In this document: positions 31,449 through 41,602 of the stretch, piece by piece
Position numbering within the stretch: position 1 is the stretch's first letter
Layout: each line of letters starts with the position of its first letter
Source: Chitinophagales bacterium
GTDB taxonomy: Bacteria; Bacteroidota; Bacteroidia; Chitinophagales; UBA10324
Direction of reading: 5' to 3'
DNA: 57,475 bases
Assembly (NCBI GenBank): GCA_025056305.1
Contig: JANWWJ010000025.1
Location: forward strand, 1 to 57,475
Notes under the pieces: model-generated
Database searches by the model: none
The model's input: the letters and a program-made list of their open reading frames with translations, nothing else
Told to the model about the DNA's origin: nothing
Made by a program: the position numbers and the translations under genes

Positions 31449-34400
31449 ATGAAAAAATTTTTTTGCATTTTGCTGTGCCTGGCCACTTCGGGCTGGGCTG
31501 TTGCCGATGTAAGTAACTACACCTTTTATCAAAGCAATGGCACCTATAGCGAAATCACCGGCGGTATCGTGTTGGGAACGGAAAACAACGACGATCAACG
31601 CTTTGTAGATCCTCTGAACCCGCAGGGGGGCACTACCTTGCAAGGACCAGGCTTTGACATCGGATTTGGATTTTATTTCAACGGCGTATTGTTTGACCGC
31701 ATCGGCATCAACACCAATGGATGGATTGCCTTCGGAAGCTCTCAATTGTCGCCTGCCGTTGACTTGTCGTCCACCAGCAGTTATATGCCGTTGGCCTCCG
31801 TTTTAGCTACAGCCCATCCGGTGCAACGTAACCGCATTGCTGCTTTGGGGCGTGACCTGCAAGGCCAGTCGGGAGCTTCTTTGCGCATACAGACCATCGG
31901 CACAGCTCCCTATCGAATATGTGTGATCCAGTGGAAAAACTACAAGCGCTATGCCTCAGCAGGCACGGGCGATACCCTCAATTTTCAAATTCGCTTGCAT
32001 GAAAACGGCGGCTTAGAATCTGATCAATACATTGAAATCGTATATGGAAAAGTTGTATTTGGATCATCCTCCACGTTTTCTGCCGTAGCTCAAGTAGGTT
32101 TGGGCGGCCTTTCTGCTGCTGATTTCAACAGCAGACGCACCGACTTCCCTCACAATTGGAACAACACCACGCAAGCACTGACCAGCTCTGATGGCTGTCA
32201 ATTACCCTTCACCACTTTGAGCGTCGTTCCCCCGGCAAATGGTTTGACCTTTACGTTCGAACCCCCGGCCGCCTGCAGCGGTTATCCTTATCCGGGAGCT
32301 ACCCTTGCCTCCTCCACCAACGTTTGCCCGGGACAGAGCGTTACTTTGTCGTTACAGAACTTTCTCGGCACGAATGTTACCTATAACTGGGCTTATTCAC
32401 TGGACGGAATAAATTACTTCTACTTGTACGTGCCCAGCCAGAGTCAAATTTCGTACACCATAACGCAAGACATCTGGTTTCTGTGTGAGGTGATTTGTAA
32501 CACCAGCGGTATGATCGCTTATTCCGATCCAGTGCAGGTGACCGCTTTTTCTTCCCTGACCTTACCCTATACCGAAAGTTTTGAGAGCATCACCGCAAAC
32601 AACGAATTGCCCTCCTGCATGCAAGCCACCAATTTAGGCGTCATGACCTTGACCTATACGGCCGATCAAGGCAGTTACAATCGCTATCCATACACGGGCA
32701 ACAAGTTTGCTTCCTTTCGCTATGGCTGCAACGACTATTTCTTTACCAACGGTGTAGTACTGGAAGCAGGAAAAACCTATGAGTTTTTTCTTTATTACAT
32801 CACCGATGGATATAACGGCTGGAACACACTGGCCATATACTACGGTAACGCACCTATGGCTTCGGCCATGACCACGCTGGTGGCCAGCGTGAGCAACCCC
32901 AACAACACCACTTATCAGCAACTGAAAGGTCAAATAACTCCAATGGTCACTGGAACCTATTTTATTGGCATCTATTGCCATGCAAGCTTCGTTCCTTGGT
33001 ACCTCTCTTTTGACGAGCTTACGCTTTATGAACTGCTTCCATGCTCTGGGCAACCCAATGCAGGCAGCACGATAGCTTCAGCTTCTACCATTTGCCCAGG
33101 CAACAGTGTCACACTTTCGCTCAGTGGCAGCACGGTGGCTAGTGGAATCGCTTATCAATGGCAATCGTCGCCCGACGGCAATGTCTGGACCAACATCGCT
33201 AATGCCAACACCAACATTTACAGTTTAGTTCCCTCGGCTTCTGCTTATTACCGATGTCAGATTACCTGTACCCTTTCAGGACAAGCCGCATTTTCAACCC
33301 CCATGTTCGTTCAAGTAGTCAGCAATATGACCTTGCCTTATACGGAAGGTTTTGAGTCCATCACGCAGAATAATCAATATCCGAACTGTATGACTTCTAC
33401 CAATCTGGGAATTTTTACCCTCACCTATGTTGGTGACCAAGGATCATACAACCGATATCCTTACAGCGGCAACAAATTTGCTGCATTCCGGTACGGTTGC
33501 AACGACTGGTTTTTCACCACCGCTATTCCGGTAACGATGGGTAACACGTATCTGCTGAGTTTATATTACATCACTGACGGATACCCCGGATGGGAAAAAC
33601 TCAGCCTGCATTACGGCGCTGCTCCAAGCAGCACATCTATGTTGGGTACCGTTGCAGAAGTGCTTACTCCAAACAACACCACCTATCAAAACCTCAGCGG
33701 CACGTTCACAGCGCCCTTTACCGGACAATTATACGTAGGTGTGTACTGCAGTTCATCTTATGTGCCTTGGTATCTGAGCTTTGATGAGCTACTGGTGGCT
33801 GAATATCCTCCTTGCTCAGGAACACCCAATGCCGGTACGGCAGTGTCTTCAGGCATCAGCGCCTGTTCAGGTGTACCCTTTAAACTTTCCCTTACCGGCT
33901 CTTCCCTGGCATCAGGACTGGCTTACCAATGGGAAAGTTCGCCCGATGGCATAAACTGGTCAGCTATGCCCGGTGCTACTACCCAGGTTTATATGGCAGC
34001 CCAAACCACTCCAACGTATTATCGTTGCAAGGTCACCTGTACCAACTCAGGACTTTCAGCTTATTCAACAGTGGTTTATGTAGATCAGCTAGGTGCGCCT
34101 TCCCTACCTTATATTGAAAGCTTTGAGACCATTACCGTTGATAACGAGCTGCCCAACTGCATGAGTGCCACTGATCTGGGCAAAGCCAACCTTACCTACA
34201 CTTCGTTTCAGACGACGCACAACCGTGTGCCGCATACCGGAAGCAAGTTTGCTTCTTTTGCCGCCCCCTGTGATGACTACTTCTTTACCTCCGGGCTATC
34301 GTTGACGGGCGGCATACCCTATCAGTTCATCGTCTATTACGTGACGGACGGCTTTCCGGGTTGGAGTCATCTTTCCTGCTACTACGGAGACGCTCCTACT

Positions 34401-35144
34401 CCCGCAGGAATGACGAATCTCCTGATCAGTCAGAGCCAGCCCAAGGTATTACCCTACACTCCGCTTCAGAAAGTGTTCGTACCAGCGACCTCGGGCATTT
34501 ACTATTTCGGCATTCATTGCGCATCATCCACCAGCGCCCCGCCTTTTTATCTGACTTTTGACGATCTGACAATAAAACAATTTTCGTGCGATGCCCCCTC
34601 TACACTCAACGTAACCAACATTACCGCTAATTCGGCCACCGTGAGCTGGCTCTGTAATGAATGTTTCTTTCCTTTTTATGCCGAAGTTGGCAAGGCGCCA
34701 ACCTACTTCGGTGCTCCGGGTAACATGATTTTTAATCCAGCTGCTTCACCGTTGCAACTTTCGGGCCTGCAGAGCAACACCACCTATACCGTCTTCGTGC
34801 AACAACAATGCACCCCCTATGGTCAAAGTGTTGAAGTACAATTCGATTTTACTACCCTTTTGGCCACGGGATTAAAAGAAGAAGCTGTGCCGGTAACCTT
34901 ATCCGTTTATCCGAACCCATCGGATGGTCTGTTCCAGGTTGAGCTTCAGTCAGACAAACCTTCGATAGAAAACGTTAGCATCGAAGTCAGAAACATGATC
35001 GGACAATCCATTTACGCGCGCCAATACAGCCAATTAGCCGGCTCCTGGAAAGGCACTATTGACCTTTCTGCTGAGAAAGGATTGTATCTGCTTCAAATTC
35101 GCATAGGGTCGGCTTCCTATGTAAGTCGCTTGATTGTTCACTGA
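31449..35144 (+). CDS. Large secreted repeat protein with T9SS sorting domain
   Basis: A 1231-residue predicted surface protein or adhesin. Signal peptide about 1-19 (KKFFCILLCLATSGWAVA). Residues 20-275 form an N-terminal beta domain (FYFNGVLFDRIGINTNGWIA). Residues 276-1046 hold three tandem units of about 257 residues, each an Ig-like part (CSGxPNAGxxxxS, YxWxSSPDGxxW) followed by a jelly-roll/adhesin-like part (LPYTESFESIT, YNRYPYTGNKFASF, CNDYFFT, FVPWYLSFDEL). An FnIII domain (NITANSATVSWLC) and a type A sorting domain (VYPNPSDGLFQVEL ... RNMIGQSIYARQY ... KGLYLLQIRIG) follow. No catalytic motif is seen. Role in adhesion is inferred from architecture. Confidence 0.85.
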   Translation: MKKFFCILLCLATSGWAVADVSNYTFYQSNGTYSEITGGIVLGTENNDDQRFVDPLNPQGGTTLQGPGFDIGFGFYFNGVLFDRIGINTNGWIAFGSSQLSPAVDLSSTSSYMPLASVLATAHPVQRNRIAALGRDLQGQSGASLRIQTIGTAPYRICVIQWKNYKRYASAGTGDTLNFQIRLHENGGLESDQYIEIVYGKVVFGSSSTFSAVAQVGLGGLSAADFNSRRTDFPHNWNNTTQALTSSDGCQLPFTTLSVVPPANGLTFTFEPPAACSGYPYPGATLASSTNVCPGQSVTLSLQNFLGTNVTYNWAYSLDGINYFYLYVPSQSQISYTITQDIWFLCEVICNTSGMIAYSDPVQVTAFSSLTLPYTESFESITANNELPSCMQATNLGVMTLTYTADQGSYNRYPYTGNKFASFRYGCNDYFFTNGVVLEAGKTYEFFLYYITDGYNGWNTLAIYYGNAPMASAMTTLVASVSNPNNTTYQQLKGQITPMVTGTYFIGIYCHASFVPWYLSFDELTLYELLPCSGQPNAGSTIASASTICPGNSVTLSLSGSTVASGIAYQWQSSPDGNVWTNIANANTNIYSLVPSASAYYRCQITCTLSGQAAFSTPMFVQVVSNMTLPYTEGFESITQNNQYPNCMTSTNLGIFTLTYVGDQGSYNRYPYSGNKFAAFRYGCNDWFFTTAIPVTMGNTYLLSLYYITDGYPGWEKLSLHYGAAPSSTSMLGTVAEVLTPNNTTYQNLSGTFTAPFTGQLYVGVYCSSSYVPWYLSFDELLVAEYPPCSGTPNAGTAVSSGISACSGVPFKLSLTGSSLASGLAYQWESSPDGINWSAMPGATTQVYMAAQTTPTYYRCKVTCTNSGLSAYSTVVYVDQLGAPSLPYIESFETITVDNELPNCMSATDLGKANLTYTSFQTTHNRVPHTGSKFASFAAPCDDYFFTSGLSLTGGIPYQFIVYYVTDGFPGWSHLSCYYGDAPTPAGMTNLLISQSQPKVLPYTPLQKVFVPATSGIYYFGIHCASSTSAPPFYLTFDDLTIKQFSCDAPSTLNVTNITANSATVSWLCNECFFPFYAEVGKAPTYFGAPGNMIFNPAASPLQLSGLQSNTTYTVFVQQQCTPYGQSVEVQFDFTTLLATGLKEEAVPVTLSVYPNPSDGLFQVELQSDKPSIENVSIEVRNMIGQSIYARQYSQLAGSWKGTIDLSAEKGLYLLQIRIGSASYVSRLIVH
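32274..34586 (+). repeat. Three tandem ~770-bp coding repeats (Ig-like plus jelly-roll units)
   Basis: Units start at 32274, 33042 and 33813 and end at 34586, with lengths of 768, 771 and 774 bp, all in frame. Each begins with a CSG codon triplet and carries the same landmarks in order. Units 1 and 2 look more alike in the GNKFA-FRYGCND part than unit 3, which has AAPCDD instead. Confidence 0.85.
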
Positions 35145-35420: not shown

Positions 35421-35564
35421 TCAATGATGATGTTCATCCTCATCGTGATGTTCCAGGTGTTTTTCGAAATCTGAGAAATACAGAATGATTGAAATCAGAG
35501 CTCCAAGAGCAGCCAGTACCAACACGATGATGGGAAAAAGAATCTTTAACAACAACATGAACAT
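35421..35564 (-). CDS. 47-residue membrane miniprotein with His/acid-rich tail
   Basis: A short gene read directly from the minus strand. It encodes one strongly hydrophobic helix (about residues 3-27, LLLKILFPIIVLVLAALGAL then SIILYF) followed by a charged tail ending EHHDEDEHHH and a TGA stop. Two ATGs are possible, at 35564 and 35558; an AAGGA lies 1 nt before the first and 7 nt before the second, so 35558 (45 residues) may be the true start. It lies 32 nt after the AAA ATPase stop on the same strand, consistent with one operon. The tail could bind divalent metals, an inference from composition. It resembles CcoS-like miniproteins in layout only and lacks their motif. No family recognised. 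Confidence 0.65.
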   Translation of the reverse strand: MFMLLLKILFPIIVLVLAALGALISIILYFSDFEKHLEHHDEDEHHH

Positions 35565-35596
35565 GTCCTTGTAGCCACAAAAATAAGCAGCTCAGA

Positions 35597-38221
35597 TTAC
35601 CCGGCCTGTCCGCCTTGGGTATCAGGCAGGGTGAAGCCCACCGGCCTGCGTATTTCCGTCGAAGTATCGACAAGCTGAAATTCTTCTACGTCACACAGCA
35701 AGATGGCAGTTACTTCAGGGGAGCGCTGTTCTTTACTCAAGGAAGACAAACGCAGGTCGCGATTTTTAATGGCTTCTTCAACGACTTTTCGCACCAGACG
35801 GGCATTTCCGAAGTTGATTGAACGCCGTTCATGAATAAATCGGAAATAGCGGGCGAGGTGTGCTTCAGCAACGGGATCTATACTAAGCCCCTCACGGCTA
35901 ATCATCTCTTTGGCTATTTGCAGCAGCTCGTCGGGTGTGTAGTCTTCAAAAACCAGAGTTTTATCAAAGCGGGAATGCAAGCCCGGGTTCGACTGCAGGA
36001 AGCGACGCATGTTTTCCGGATAGCCTGCAACAATAACCACCAGTTGGCCCCGCAGATCTTCCATACGCTTAAGCAAGGTTTCTATGGCTTCGTAGCCATA
36101 ATCATTGGGGCCTCCGGATGCCAACGAATAGGCCTCATCGATGAAGAGCACCCCACCTTTAGCTCGGTCAATTACTTCAGCAGTCTTCAGGGCCGTTTGA
36201 CCCACATAGCCAGCCACCAACCCCTGGCGATCCACCTCAACTAAGTGGCCCCGCTCCAACAGGCCCAGCGCTTTGTAAATCCTAGCTAGCAATCGGGCTA
36301 CCGTGGTTTTGCCCGTGCCTGGATTACCCAGAAAAATGGTGTGCAAGGAAAACCTACTGAGCACTTCCTTCCCTTCTTCTTTGTAAAAGCGCACCAATTT
36401 GACCAGTTCGTGAATTTCTACCTTAATGCTGCCAAGCCCCACCAGGCTGTTGAGTTCTTGCAAAGCAGCCTTGAGTTGTGCCTCGTCAATAGGGATGTGT
36501 GGCAAACCGGATTTTTTTGAAATAAAAATTTTTTCTATGTCTTCTCGCTGAATCGTAGAGAACTGTTCTTTATCCAACTGCTGCGGATTTTCGTGCCGCA
36601 TCACACGTAAGGCCATGTTCAGCCTGGCCTCTTCAATCCAAGCGTTGATCAAGCGGGCATTTCCGAAGGTTCGATCACGGTTTCGGTAGGCCTCTACAAT
36701 CTTGTCACGCAGATAGTCTAATGCCGCAGGCGTAAAACTGAGCTGTCGTTCAGCAGCTGCATATTCGGCAATCTGGAGAAGCTCTTGGGGCAGGTAATCA
36801 GGAAATTTAAAATGCCTTCCGAAGCGGGACTTTAAGCCCGGATTGCTATTGAGAAAGACATCCATTTCCTCGGGATAGCCGGCTACAATGATGGCGAGGT
36901 CCCCAGGACCATCACTCATTTCGCGTAACAACACTTCAATAGCCTCACGCCCAAAGTCCCGCCCGTCGTCGGCTTTTCGGGCCAAAGCATAAGCTTCATC
37001 AATGAACAGCACACCGCCGCGGGCTCGGTTGATGACCTCGCGGGTGCGTGGGGCCGTTTGACCGATGTATTCCGCCACCAAATCGCCGCGATCTACCTCC
37101 ACTAGATGACCGCGGCTTAGGAGCCCTAAGCGCGCCCAAATTCGGCTTAACAAGCGCGCCACAGTGGTTTTTCCAGTTCCCGGATTGCCTGTAAAAACAC
37201 AATGCAGATTGATTCGCCTTTCTACCGGTAACCCCTTTTGGCTTCTAAGCTGTTCAAAGCGCAAAAAATCGACATAATCATGAACGAACTTTTTGATTTC
37301 CGTAAGGCCTATCAGCTTATCCAATTTGGCCAGGAGCATTTCCAGTGTCTCTTCTTCGGGCGAAGTTTTTTCTGACGTGCGAGGCAAGGTATAGGGAACC
37401 TGGCGCAACAAAGGCACTTCCCCCGCAATAGCCTCATCACCTACTTTAAAGGGAACGACCGCTAAGAGCTGATCCATAAAGACCACCTCCAGGGTAAAAT
37501 CGTCGGCATGCCAGGTGCCCTTTACGTCTGCACCCCAGCCTGTGGTGACGGTAAGCTGCCCGCTGTGGTCGGGTTGAAACATGAAAAATTCTACACATTG
37601 ACCTTTGAGTTGCCGAGCATCGTTGTAGAAATCAAAAAACAATTCGCAAGGCCATGGCGTTTCTTTATGCAGGTTTTGCAAAACCAGTTCCACCCATACG
37701 TAGCGGGTGTTGGCAGCGTCAAACTGTTTCAGGTAAATGCGGTCTTTTTTGGCCACCCCGGCATTGGGCCCTTCATATAATTTGATTGAAACGATGTTGA
37801 AATAGGGGTTTTTTTCAGCGGTTACCGGCCCGCCATTTACGATGTAAAACTTGCGGCTTTCGAGCAGCACATCGTCAGCCCATGCTTCAAAGCGATACTC
37901 TCCTTTTTTCCAATAAGCCCCGGGTTGCTGGTGGCCCCATCCCTCACGGATGTAAACCACGTTCTCGTCGCTGCGAACAGGTCGTTCTATGCGAATGTTA
38001 CACAACTCCTCCCCTCGCTGGTTGTATGCCCTGATGCTGCCGTCAAACAACCAGTCTTCTTCATCAAACTTTTTGTTATACAAGGAAAGTTCTGCATACA
38101 CATATGATGTTGTGGATTCCTCCAAAACGGTTTGATATTTTCTCTTGCTGTCAGCCAAAGGTTCAGGCGTCCCGAAAATCTTCAGGTCGCGGACTTTGAA
38201 ATAAGCTTGACTTTTGCCCAT
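35597..38221 (-). CDS. Double AAA+ ATPase, CbbX/SpoVK-like, with duplicated N-terminal beta module
   Basis: 874 residues, predicted cytoplasmic. Residues about 1-130 and 138-265 are two related beta-rich modules (compare YVYAELSLYNK-DGSIRAYNQRGEEL with YVWVELVLQNL-FFDFYNDARQLKG). Two CbxX/CfqX-type AAA domains follow: the first with Walker A GNPGTGKTT (K351) and Walker B VLFIDEA (about 405-410), the second with GNPGTGKTT (K638) and VLFIDEA. Each has the pore-loop-type GQTA segment and the NPGLxSRF arginine region. Relatives include the Rubisco activase CbbX and SpoVK, which remodel protein complexes. The start at 38221 (MGKSQAYFKVRDLKIFG) is preferred over an upstream GTG. It sits between a small hydrolase gene and a membrane miniprotein. 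No rubisco gene is near, so the client is unknown. Confidence 0.87.
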   Translation of the reverse strand: MGKSQAYFKVRDLKIFGTPEPLADSKRKYQTVLEESTTSYVYAELSLYNKKFDEEDWLFDGSIRAYNQRGEELCNIRIERPVRSDENVVYIREGWGHQQPGAYWKKGEYRFEAWADDVLLESRKFYIVNGGPVTAEKNPYFNIVSIKLYEGPNAGVAKKDRIYLKQFDAANTRYVWVELVLQNLHKETPWPCELFFDFYNDARQLKGQCVEFFMFQPDHSGQLTVTTGWGADVKGTWHADDFTLEVVFMDQLLAVVPFKVGDEAIAGEVPLLRQVPYTLPRTSEKTSPEEETLEMLLAKLDKLIGLTEIKKFVHDYVDFLRFEQLRSQKGLPVERRINLHCVFTGNPGTGKTTVARLLSRIWARLGLLSRGHLVEVDRGDLVAEYIGQTAPRTREVINRARGGVLFIDEAYALARKADDGRDFGREAIEVLLREMSDGPGDLAIIVAGYPEEMDVFLNSNPGLKSRFGRHFKFPDYLPQELLQIAEYAAAERQLSFTPAALDYLRDKIVEAYRNRDRTFGNARLINAWIEEARLNMALRVMRHENPQQLDKEQFSTIQREDIEKIFISKKSGLPHIPIDEAQLKAALQELNSLVGLGSIKVEIHELVKLVRFYKEEGKEVLSRFSLHTIFLGNPGTGKTTVARLLARIYKALGLLERGHLVEVDRQGLVAGYVGQTALKTAEVIDRAKGGVLFIDEAYSLASGGPNDYGYEAIETLLKRMEDLRGQLVVIVAGYPENMRRFLQSNPGLHSRFDKTLVFEDYTPDELLQIAKEMISREGLSIDPVAEAHLARYFRFIHERRSINFGNARLVRKVVEEAIKNRDLRLSSLSKEQRSPEVTAILLCDVEEFQLVDTSTEIRRPVGFTLPDTQGGQAG

Positions 38222-38280
38222 GATATGCTGAACCACATGCCGATTCGGTACTCATGACCGCTGCAGGTTGGCACCCAAAT

Positions 38281-38949
38281 TTAGTTACTGACTTCATGAC
38301 TGATTCCTTCCACCCGTTGGTACAACAATCGGTCTAAATGGCTTTGAACGGCCGGGCGCTGTTGCACAATTACAAAATGCTGACCACCTGCTATTACAAT
38401 ATCGGCAGCTGCATAAGACAGAGGGAACAGCCGATCCCTGTCGCCGTGAATTTTTACGATGTCATTCGTGTAGCGACAGCCGGCCCAGCGCGGTACCGCT
38501 TCAAGTGCCCAACGAACAAAATCCATATCGGCTTTGAGCACCATATCGCATAGCAACTGGCGTTGCTCACGGCTTTTTGAAGTAAAAACATCACCGAGCA
38601 GCACGATGATCGCGCGCAGCACGCGATCAGGCAGCCATCGATGCAACGGCAACCACAGCGGAAGGCTAATCCACCACGGGCGATCACAATTCACCAGCGA
38701 AGCAATGGTAATCACTTTGCGTACCGAAATCTGTTCTCGAATCACAGCAGCAATCATGCCTCCCAAGGAAAAACCAATTAAAATGCTGTTGTCGTCAAAC
38801 TCATACAAAGCCCCCAAGCGACGAGCGTAAGCTTCCAGTGTTTCTTGGGGTGTGGGCTTGGGGTAGTTTACCACCACCACCGGTTCACTAAAACGATAGC
38901 CATTGAGCAACCGTCCATCAGTGGCTAATCCGGGAAAGAAATAAATCAC
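38281..38949 (-). CDS. Alpha/beta-fold hydrolase
   Basis: A 222-residue cytoplasmic-type hydrolase without signal peptide. Likely triad: Ser61 in IGFSLGGM, Asp172 in HGDRDRLFP and His190 in GGQHF. The N-terminus YFFPGLATDGRLL holds the oxyanion-loop region. The family covers esterases, lipases and acyltransferases; I cannot name the substrate. The start is GTG at 38949, with a perfect TAnnTTTG box ending 4 nt upstream, suggesting a leaderless message. It precedes the AAA ATPase gene by 59 nt on the same strand and is divergent from acylphosphatase. Confidence 0.82.
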   Translation of the reverse strand: MIYFFPGLATDGRLLNGYRFSEPVVVVNYPKPTPQETLEAYARRLGALYEFDDNSILIGFSLGGMIAAVIREQISVRKVITIASLVNCDRPWWISLPLWLPLHRWLPDRVLRAIIVLLGDVFTSKSREQRQLLCDMVLKADMDFVRWALEAVPRWAGCRYTNDIVKIHGDRDRLFPLSYAAADIVIAGGQHFVIVQQRPAVQSHLDRLLYQRVEGISHEVSN

Positions 38950-38953
38950 ATGG

Positions 38954-38961
38954 CAAAGCTA
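38954..38961 (-). promoter_or_regulatory. Bacteroidota-type -7 promoter box (TAGCTTTG)
   Basis: Perfect TAnnTTTG on the minus strand ending 4 nt before the hydrolase GTG at 38949. It lies in the 47-bp divergent gap shared with acyP, whose own candidate box (TGTCTTTG, 38987-38994, plus) has one mismatch and ends 2 nt before its ATG. Confidence 0.55.
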
Positions 38962-38996: not shown

Positions 38997-39290
38997 ATGA
39001 AGGAAGCAGTTGTGCACTATCGGATTCGCATACGCGGGCGAGTGCAAGGGGTCTTTTTCAGGGCTACTGCCCGAAATCAAGCCCTGAATCTTGGGCTGAA
39101 AGGCATAGTGCGCAACGAAGCCGATGGCTCCGTCTATGCAGAAGTAGAGGGACCAGAGGACAAGGTTCAGCAATTCATCGCCTGGTGCCACCGAGGTCCC
39201 AAACAGGCTATCGTAACCGAGGTGATTGCCGAACAAAGCACTCCAAAAGGCTATAATTCATTTGAGGTGGAAAGAGGTTTGTATCATTGA
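38997..39290 (+). CDS. acyP: Acylphosphatase
   Basis: Small (97-residue) enzyme that hydrolyses carboxyl-phosphate bonds. The signature GRVQGVFFRATARNQALNLGL carries the phosphate-binding loop and catalytic Arg22; GIVRNEADGSVYAEVEG carries Asn40. Length is normal. It is divergent from the hydrolase operon and followed on the same strand, 32 nt later, by a secreted protease gene. Physiological substrate in bacteria is not established. Confidence 0.95.
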   Translation: MKEAVVHYRIRIRGRVQGVFFRATARNQALNLGLKGIVRNEADGSVYAEVEGPEDKVQQFIAWCHRGPKQAIVTEVIAEQSTPKGYNSFEVERGLYH

Positions 39291-39322
39291 AGTGCAGTAA
39301 CTTCAAATCAAGAACGCCTGGG

Positions 39323-41602
39323 ATGAAAAGATTGCTTCATTCAGCGATGATCCTAGCCGCATTCCTACCAAGGAGTGAAGGGCTGCAGGCTCAATGCTCT
39401 ATGATTCCCTTATCGCTCCAAGATCGAGTACGCCATGCTTCCCTTATTGTAGAAGGAAAAGTGACAGAGCTGCGTGCTTTCTGGAATGAGCGGAAAACCA
39501 TGATCTATACCGCCTACCGCATAGAAGTATATAAAATTTTCAAAGGTGAAAATGTGCCTTCCCAACTTACGGTTTTAACGGAGGGGGGTGTGGTGGGCAA
39601 TCGGATGATCATAGCTCATCCCAACGTATCGCTGCAGCCAGGCGATGTGGGGCTTTTTCTGCTTATAGCCAATCCTTATCCCATAGGAAATGTGGAAGGC
39701 TTGTCCGATCCTTATGCGCTCTACGGTGCTGCTCAGGGCTTCATCCGCTATGACACCTATGAGGACTCGGCCGCTGATCCTTTTTTCCATTATCCCGACA
39801 TAAGAAAAAACCTCTATAGACCGATACTGCGCTTCACCAACAAACACACTTATCAAGAGTTGAAGATTGTTGACTTTTTTGTGGAGAAGAAAAAAAAGTT
39901 TGCTCCTCCCGTAATCAATTCTTTTTCGCCCACAGCCACCGTAGCCGGTACTTTATCGGCCAACCTTCTTACCATCAATGGTAACAATTTTGGCTCCAGT
40001 TATGTAATAGGTACTTCCAAACTTGAATTCAAAAATTCCAACGATGGTGGTGCCACCTACATTGCCGCACCCGACAACCACATTGTGTCGTGGAGCAACA
40101 CCTCTATTACAGCATGGATTCCCACCGGTGCCGGTACCGGCACCATCCGGGTTACCAATAATTTAGGGGAAAAAGGCACCTCTTCCTCATCGCTTACGAT
40201 ATATTACAATGAAATTAATGTAATTTCCGGCGGCACTTATTACCTCCCCGACCTTGTTGATGACAACGGGAGCGGCGGCTATACGTTTGTTTACAACACT
40301 GCGTTCAACAGCAACACCGATGCAGTGGCTGCCTTTGAGCGCTCGCTCGTTACCTGGCGGTGTGGTGTCTATGTTCATTTTACACGCTCCGGAACAACAA
40401 CCATAGGCGACAATGCCAGCGATGGGGTTAACGTGGTCACTTTTGACGGAATTAGTCCCTTGCCTTCAGGTGTATTAGGGACGGCTTATAGTTACTACGT
40501 CGGTTGTGGCTCGGGGGTATGGTACGTCTCGGAGCTGGATTTGAAGTTCCGTACCAACGGCACCGGAGGAGTTACCTGGAACTATGGTCCAGGCGCCACC
40601 AGTGGCGGTAAGTACGATTTTGAATCCGTTGCTCTGCACGAATTAGGTCATTGCCTCCAATTAGGCCATACCAATCAATCTCCTGCCACAGTCATGCACT
40701 ATGCCCTGCCCTCAAACACCGACCGGCGAACGCTTACACCTGCCAGCGAAGTGGACGGTGGCAATGATGTGGTAAGCCGGAGCAGCGTCAACAACAGTTG
40801 CGGCCCCACCAAGATGATTGCGCTCAACTCTTCCAACTGCACCTTTGCCGTACCTCCCGTGGCCGACTTTACGGCTTCCAGCACTTCCGTTTGCAAAAAC
40901 AAAACGATAAATTTTACTGACCTAAGCATCAATGCACCTACTGCGTGGTCGTGGTCTTTCAGTGGAGGCACACCTTCTACCAGCACGGCACAGCACCCCA
41001 CAGGCATTAAGTACAAGACGGTGGGCACCTTTGACGTGAGCCTCACGGCCAGCAATGCCGCAGGGTCAGATACTGAAACCAAAAGCAATTACATCACGGT
41101 GAATTCTCTTCCCTCGGTAACGATTAGTGCTGCACCTTGTTCGGCAGGCTCCGTTCTGTTGACGGCAACCGCCTCTCCCTCCACCGGAGTCACTTACCAA
41201 TGGAAGAAAAATGGATCAAAAATTTCAGGTGCCACCAATCCCACTTATTTGGCCACCAGCAATGGGGAATACAAGTGCGAAGTCAAAATCACCGCCACGG
41301 GTTGCAAAAAAACCAGTTCGGGCATTACCGTGACCATTAACTGTCGTACGGGCGACATCATGTATGCTGAGCCTGTGTCGGTCTATCCGAACCCAAGTCC
41401 ACAGGCATTTCGCGTGCTGCTTTCAGCCGACCCGGCCACCACCACAATTGTCGTTCGGGATATGACAGGCAAATGGATGGAAACCCTCCGACCGCAGCAC
41501 GAGCAGTTCTGGCTTGGCAATCAGTGGCCGGCAGGAACCTATCTTGCAGAAGTTTGGATCGAGGGTCGTCGGTCGCAGGCCTTACGGCTGGTGAAAGAGT
41601 GA
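39323..41602 (+). CDS. Secreted metzincin-like metalloprotease with IPT/TIG, PKD, Ig-like and T9SS sorting domains
   Basis: 759 residues from the ATG at 39323, which opens a signal peptide (KRLLHSAMILAAFLPRSEGLQA). An in-frame TTG at 39287 is less likely. Order: beta domain (about 24-190), IPT/TIG domain (INSFSPTATVAG ... LLTINGNNFGSS, about 195-300), zinc protease domain (about 305-515), PKD domain (VADFTASSTSVCKNKTINFT ... WSWSFSGGTP), Ig-like domain (YQWKKNGSKISGAT) and a type A sorting domain (VYPNPSPQAFRVLLSA ... GTYLAEVWIEG). The zinc site is HELGHCLQLGH (H439, E440, H443, H449) with a Met-turn-like VMHYAL. The Gly normally two residues before the last GH is Gln446. Secretion by T9SS and proteolysis are inferred. 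Confidence 0.85.
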   Translation: MKRLLHSAMILAAFLPRSEGLQAQCSMIPLSLQDRVRHASLIVEGKVTELRAFWNERKTMIYTAYRIEVYKIFKGENVPSQLTVLTEGGVVGNRMIIAHPNVSLQPGDVGLFLLIANPYPIGNVEGLSDPYALYGAAQGFIRYDTYEDSAADPFFHYPDIRKNLYRPILRFTNKHTYQELKIVDFFVEKKKKFAPPVINSFSPTATVAGTLSANLLTINGNNFGSSYVIGTSKLEFKNSNDGGATYIAAPDNHIVSWSNTSITAWIPTGAGTGTIRVTNNLGEKGTSSSSLTIYYNEINVISGGTYYLPDLVDDNGSGGYTFVYNTAFNSNTDAVAAFERSLVTWRCGVYVHFTRSGTTTIGDNASDGVNVVTFDGISPLPSGVLGTAYSYYVGCGSGVWYVSELDLKFRTNGTGGVTWNYGPGATSGGKYDFESVALHELGHCLQLGHTNQSPATVMHYALPSNTDRRTLTPASEVDGGNDVVSRSSVNNSCGPTKMIALNSSNCTFAVPPVADFTASSTSVCKNKTINFTDLSINAPTAWSWSFSGGTPSTSTAQHPTGIKYKTVGTFDVSLTASNAAGSDTETKSNYITVNSLPSVTISAAPCSAGSVLLTATASPSTGVTYQWKKNGSKISGATNPTYLATSNGEYKCEVKITATGCKKTSSGITVTINCRTGDIMYAEPVSVYPNPSPQAFRVLLSADPATTTIVVRDMTGKWMETLRPQHEQFWLGNQWPAGTYLAEVWIEGRRSQALRLVKE

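Follow-up and report, generated by a model that had tools for sequence, protein, structure and literature searches.

A double-AAA ATPase of the SpoVK-EccA-CbbX group with tandem N-terminal β-sandwiches, and its gene neighbours, in a Chitinophagales bacterium

On the minus strand of a 57,475-nucleotide stretch of DNA from a Chitinophagales bacterium (contig JANWWJ010000025.1 of assembly GCA_025056305.1, here called the 57.5-kb window), the gene of a double-AAA ATPase (AAA) lies between those of a small hydrolase (HYD) and a membrane miniprotein (MINI). We favour, with moderate confidence, the reading that the ATPase is a dedicated non-proteolytic remodeller of the SpoVK-EccA-CbbX type on a separate Bacteroidota and Ignavibacteria branch, with MINI as a separately promoted, probable membrane partner and HYD as a most likely independent enzyme. 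The gene cluster as such is ordinary; the ATPase at its centre is somewhat unusual, widely distributed and apparently uncharacterised, and no report on its branch was found in the literature searched.

Layout and recurrence of the locus

The positions of the three minus-strand open reading frames were confirmed as follows.

38281–38949, minus strand: HYD, small α/β-hydrolase of 222 residues with a GTG start; predicted triad Ser61, Asp172 and His191
35597–38236, minus strand: AAA, double-AAA ATPase of 879 residues from the GTG start, or 874 residues from an ATG at 38221
35421–35564, minus strand: MINI, predicted one-helix membrane protein of 47 residues with an Asp/Glu/His-rich tail; seven homologues, dN/dS about 0.1

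HYD and AAA are separated by 44 nt when counted from the GTG start of AAA and by 59 nt when counted from the ATG, AAA and MINI by 32 nt. A preliminary description of this DNA, made from the sequence alone, had reported three same-strand genes with gaps of 59 and 32 nt, which is correct, the former value presupposing the ATG start. Judged by their conservation, all three are genuine genes. On both sides of the locus large proteins with a Por_Secre_tail sorting domain are encoded (39287–41602 and 31449–35144); the first of these proteins additionally shows PKD domains and a match to a matrixin-like peptidase.

Among 16 genomes of the host's family AAA is present in eight, HYD in seven and MINI in seven. 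The preliminary description had proposed neighbourhood conservation as a check and had named a trio never co-occurring in related genomes as the outcome that would speak against it; the full trio in the order HYD-AAA-MINI is in fact present in three genomes, G000, G001 and G004, which belong to two genera, and it was not seen outside the family among 198 genomes of the host's order.

Domain structure and classification of the ATPase

The ATPase consists of two N-terminal β-sandwiches followed by two AAA domains.

37838–38200, minus strand: β-sandwich 1, residues 13–133, GWG at 99 (AlphaFold model)
37439–37801, minus strand: β-sandwich 2, residues 146–266, GWG at 233 (AlphaFold model)
36542–37354, minus strand: AAA domain 1, residues 295–565; Walker A 350, Walker B 410, sensor-1 GY 452, NPGLKSR 465, FGNAR 524
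35702–36484, minus strand: AAA domain 2, residues 585–845; Walker A 637, Walker B 697, sensor-1 GY 737, NPGLHSR 750, FGNAR 809

Profile matches delineate both AAA domains together with their lids, and to judge from the motifs both ATPase sites are intact. Full-length relatives share 43–75% identity. The signatures of the SpoVK-EccA-CbbX clade include a sensor-1 tyrosine in the form GY and a retained sensor-2 arginine (PMC10659427). Both are found here: AGYP at residues 452 and 737, at least 90% conserved, and FGNAR at residues 524 and 809, the arginine being assigned by motif alone. The segments NPGLKSR and NPGLHSR, likewise a feature of the clade and the site of the candidate finger arginine, correspond to NPGLQSR in SpoVK and NPGFRSR in CbbX.

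Each AAA domain matches the SpoVK, CbbX and EccA models. With the SpoVK model the domains score 283.6 and 274.4 bits, both below the NCBIfam equivalog cut-off of 422.95, and the 550.8 bits of the whole protein exceed it only by the addition of the two domain scores. The same applies to CbbX (259.2 and 212.5 bits per domain; 464.3 bits for the whole protein, over the cut-off of 459.25 only as a two-domain sum), while the EccA model gives 448.4 bits for the whole protein and 228 per domain, below its equivalog cut-off of 466.65. In a domain tree, calculated with few outgroup references and rooted at the midpoint, the Bacteroidota and Ignavibacteria copies separate from the CbbX, SpoVK and EccA references (support 0.96). 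Between these two groups domain 1 pairs with domain 1 (0.82) and domain 2 with domain 2 (0.98), which indicates that the double layout is old. By sequence, the protein is thus a member of the SpoVK-EccA-CbbX group on a branch apart from the named families.

The host genome as a whole contains no match to the rubisco large subunit (PF00016), for which the control genomes were positive. This bears out the preliminary description, which had noted a CbbX/SpoVK-like double ATPase without a rubisco gene nearby, and rubisco was rejected as the client.

Comparison with characterised relatives

SpoVK, which in Bacillus is a chaperone of MurG (PMC10659427), shares the clade signatures and provides the best NCBIfam model for each single AAA domain of the window protein. 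It has, however, a single AAA domain preceded by a short N-terminal domain and occurs in spore formers, whereas here two AAA domains follow an N-terminal region of about 290 residues with two sandwiches. CbbX, the activase of red-type rubisco, has the same AAA core, and among solved chains its structures 3syk and 3zuh come closest to the window protein; its reference genes adjoin rbcL/rbcS, in contrast to the rubisco-free host genome. The general plan of an N-terminal recruiting module joined to a CbbX-like AAA core is also that of EccA of type VII secretion, although EccA carries TPRs and a single AAA domain instead of β-sandwiches and two. The Ignavibacteria relatives, with apparent TPR-like repeats (assigned by eye), share this feature with EccA. 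Two CbbX-like AAA domains per chain are likewise present in tandem double-AAA proteins of Streptomyces (with a β-helix), Calothrix and Virgibacillus, but their N-terminal parts are different, and in the domain tree they fall outside the Bacteroidota branch.

The tandem β-sandwich module

In the AlphaFold model (mean pLDDT 89.8) the N-terminal region is predicted to form two tandem β-sandwiches, each bearing a GWG...G.W motif. The sandwiches match no Pfam family. A 'beta-prism' is mentioned for some CbbX-like versions in the clade description (PMC10659427), and it may or may not be equivalent to the sandwich domain. A survey of 149 genomes of the class placed almost every sandwich match in a frame of ATPase length, the others being two frames with one AAA domain and one frame of 368 residues. 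The best structural matches, at Z scores of about 9–10, are RbmA, C-terminal domains of transglutaminases, sandwiches of GH2 enzymes and the carbohydrate-binding domain of Wzt. As these share just the common Ig/FnIII-like fold, a function derived from the fold was rejected. In two genomes of one family (L221 and L225) both sandwiches are followed by the second AAA domain alone, a natural single-ring version of the protein.

Distribution and gene neighbours of the ATPase

AAA is present in 109 of the 198 sampled genomes of the host's order and also in Ignavibacteria. Its distribution is patchy between the families of the order and near-universal in the sampled genomes of some of them. The gene usually stands alone: the most frequent neighbour family is found in 8 of 81 Bacteroidia-type loci, and none of these loci offered a conserved neighbour that would name the client. 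In Ignavibacteria a gene pair for the ATPase and permease of an ABC transporter often lies downstream; it was discarded as a clue to the client, being without recurrence in Bacteroidia and possibly a matter of inherited synteny. The Ignavibacteria relatives (L083–L112) have apparent N-terminal TPRs, one sandwich and three AAA domains. Genomes of two families (f2 and f11; L126 and L127) encode extra CbbX-like proteins in which a single AAA domain follows another kind of N-terminal part, judged by eye to be TerB-like.

The miniprotein

MINI has seven homologues in the host's family, with L6, I8, F10, P11, G21, F30 and H39 invariant. Comparison of the window copy with that of the congeneric genome G001 gives dN 0.156 and dS 1.68, and that of G009 with G011 dN 0.065 and dS 1.03, the changes in both pairs being mostly at third positions. 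The resulting dN/dS of about 0.1 marks MINI as a real gene under strong purifying selection. The curated databases contain no match to it, and outside the family no convincing match was found elsewhere in the order.

In all seven genomes that possess MINI it adjoins AAA, in two of them on the opposite strand, and it is absent from the eight family genomes that lack AAA. Because of this constant adjacency MINI is a candidate partner, and plausibly a lineage-specific one, of the ATPase. A narrower proposal is that within the family MINI serves this ATPase specifically, either as adaptor or as client, the sandwiches or the pore engaging its acidic, His-rich tail, with a membrane and possibly metal-related target; for direct contact with the ATPase the tail would have to be cytoplasmic. 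This we consider a possibility, yet a minority one. It would suit a gene under strong selection that occurs solely beside AAA, is missing where AAA is missing and has no convincing counterpart elsewhere in the order; on the other hand, AAA occurs without MINI in G008 and, elsewhere in the order, in about 100 genomes, which speaks against a general requirement, and the adjacency may be inherited synteny. Less probable still, and rather speculative, is the combined proposal of a separate Bacteroidota/Ignavibacteria set of dedicated AAA+ chaperones in which the tandem sandwich is a recruiter of undescribed type and the His-rich MINI, in one family, an adaptor to an envelope or metal-dependent target.

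Promoter-like boxes and the question of an operon

The sequence TAnnTTTG is the -7 box of Bacteroidota promoters (PMC7366714). One copy precedes each gene of the trio.

38954–38961, minus strand: promoter-like box TAGCTTTG, 4 nt ahead of the HYD start codon (motif match)
38276–38283, minus strand: box TAAATTTG, overlapping the HYD stop codon and preceding AAA (motif match)
35578–35585, minus strand: box TATTTTTG, preceding MINI and kept in G001, G004 and G007 (motif match)

The whole window contains 12 copies on the plus strand and 13 on the minus strand, and three of the latter are those at the trio (38961, 38283 and 35585). The first of these, described previously as a perfect promoter box ahead of HYD, was found again at 38961–38954, while those at 38283 and 35585 had been missed. 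The spacing of 4 nt between box and HYD start is identical in the congener G001, which suggests a leaderless HYD message. Boxes are enriched upstream of AAA: 22 of 60 loci have one, where mononucleotide shuffles predict 5.7. The MINI box of the window, and likewise that of G001, G004 and G007, lies at -21 to -29; the other MINI genes have near-matches.

The preliminary description had seen in the trio a single operon, with the hydrolase as the client of the ATPase and the miniprotein as its membrane tether. The small intergenic gaps are in favour of this, as are the gene order shared by G000, G001 and G004, the adjacency of HYD and AAA also in G008, and the co-occurrence of HYD and AAA within the family (seven genomes with both, one with AAA only, none with HYD only and eight with neither). 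Descent confounds the last pattern, as all eight genomes with neither gene stem from only three genera. Furthermore, neither gap contains a terminator-like site, so that read-through is possible, and a transcript spanning all three genes may exist. With one box before each gene, instead of one box for all, a three-gene operon is nevertheless doubtful, and HYD and MINI seem to be served by separate promoters. In G009 and G011 MINI is on the opposite strand and must there be transcribed alone, and in G003 and G007 HYD is located away from AAA.

In gene content HYD and AAA are independent of each other across the order. HYD is present in 99 of the 198 genomes, together with AAA in 55, and 45 contain neither (odds ratio 1.04). 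Outside the family 48 genomes have both genes, 53 AAA only, 44 HYD only and 37 neither (p 0.38), and in the loci seen there HYD is never next to AAA. HYD as dedicated client was therefore rejected as the leading reading, and the scheme of operon, client and tether as a whole is unlikely.

The hydrolase

HYD matches Abhydrolase_6 with a score barely over the cut-off. In the 34 members of its family Ser61 and Asp172 are invariant and His191 is at least 90% conserved, and the model (pLDDT 94.2) shows an α/β-hydrolase fold with nucleophile elbow and Ser-Asp-His triad, from which hydrolase activity is predicted. In fold (Foldseek E 2e-9, TM about 0.7) and triad positions HYD is similar to BioH/MenH-type and aryl-esterase α/β-hydrolases, but it shares with them only 14–20% identity and scores far under the BioH cut-off. 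An acylphosphatase gene (38997–39290) is divergent from HYD in the window, G001, G003 and G008, including G003 where HYD lies away from AAA, and thus accompanies HYD more steadily than the ATPase does. Most likely HYD is an enzyme of esterase- or thioesterase-like type, independent of AAA and found upstream of it by chance in some genera, and at this locus it is probably a bystander.

Proposed mechanism and implications

A role in anti-phage defence or another kind of conflict would account for the patchy distribution of the ATPase between families, and the protein does give weak matches to the models of IetA and TRIP13. This reading is nevertheless very improbable and was rejected: the matches (20–68 bits) reflect generic AAA domains, no nuclease or other effector recurs beside the gene and, unlike a mobile defence gene, it is carried by almost every sampled genome of some families.

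Those members of the clade that have been characterised act as narrow, dedicated chaperones; their N-terminal recruiting domains vary, and they have no peptidase partners (PMC10659427). By analogy, in the favoured reading of a dedicated remodeller, the two tandem Ig/FnIII-like sandwiches would recruit and hold one dedicated client, on which two stacked ATP-driven AAA rings would pull, and the client would thereby be activated or released without degradation. The hexamer, the threading through the pore, the single client and the absence of proteolysis are all inferred from these relatives. In the host's family the one-helix MINI, with a putative promoter of its own, probably acts with the ATPase at the membrane, as its genetic linkage suggests.

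Since the scores of the two AAA domains sum past the cut-off, automatic naming will label these proteins 'stage V sporulation protein K' even in non-sporulating bacteria. The characterised clade members each serve one client, namely rubisco, MurG or type VII secretion. With a widespread branch whose two-ring layout is old and whose recruiting domain is absent from Pfam, the hunt for the client of this ATPase is well posed, and in one family MINI provides a concrete, testable partner.
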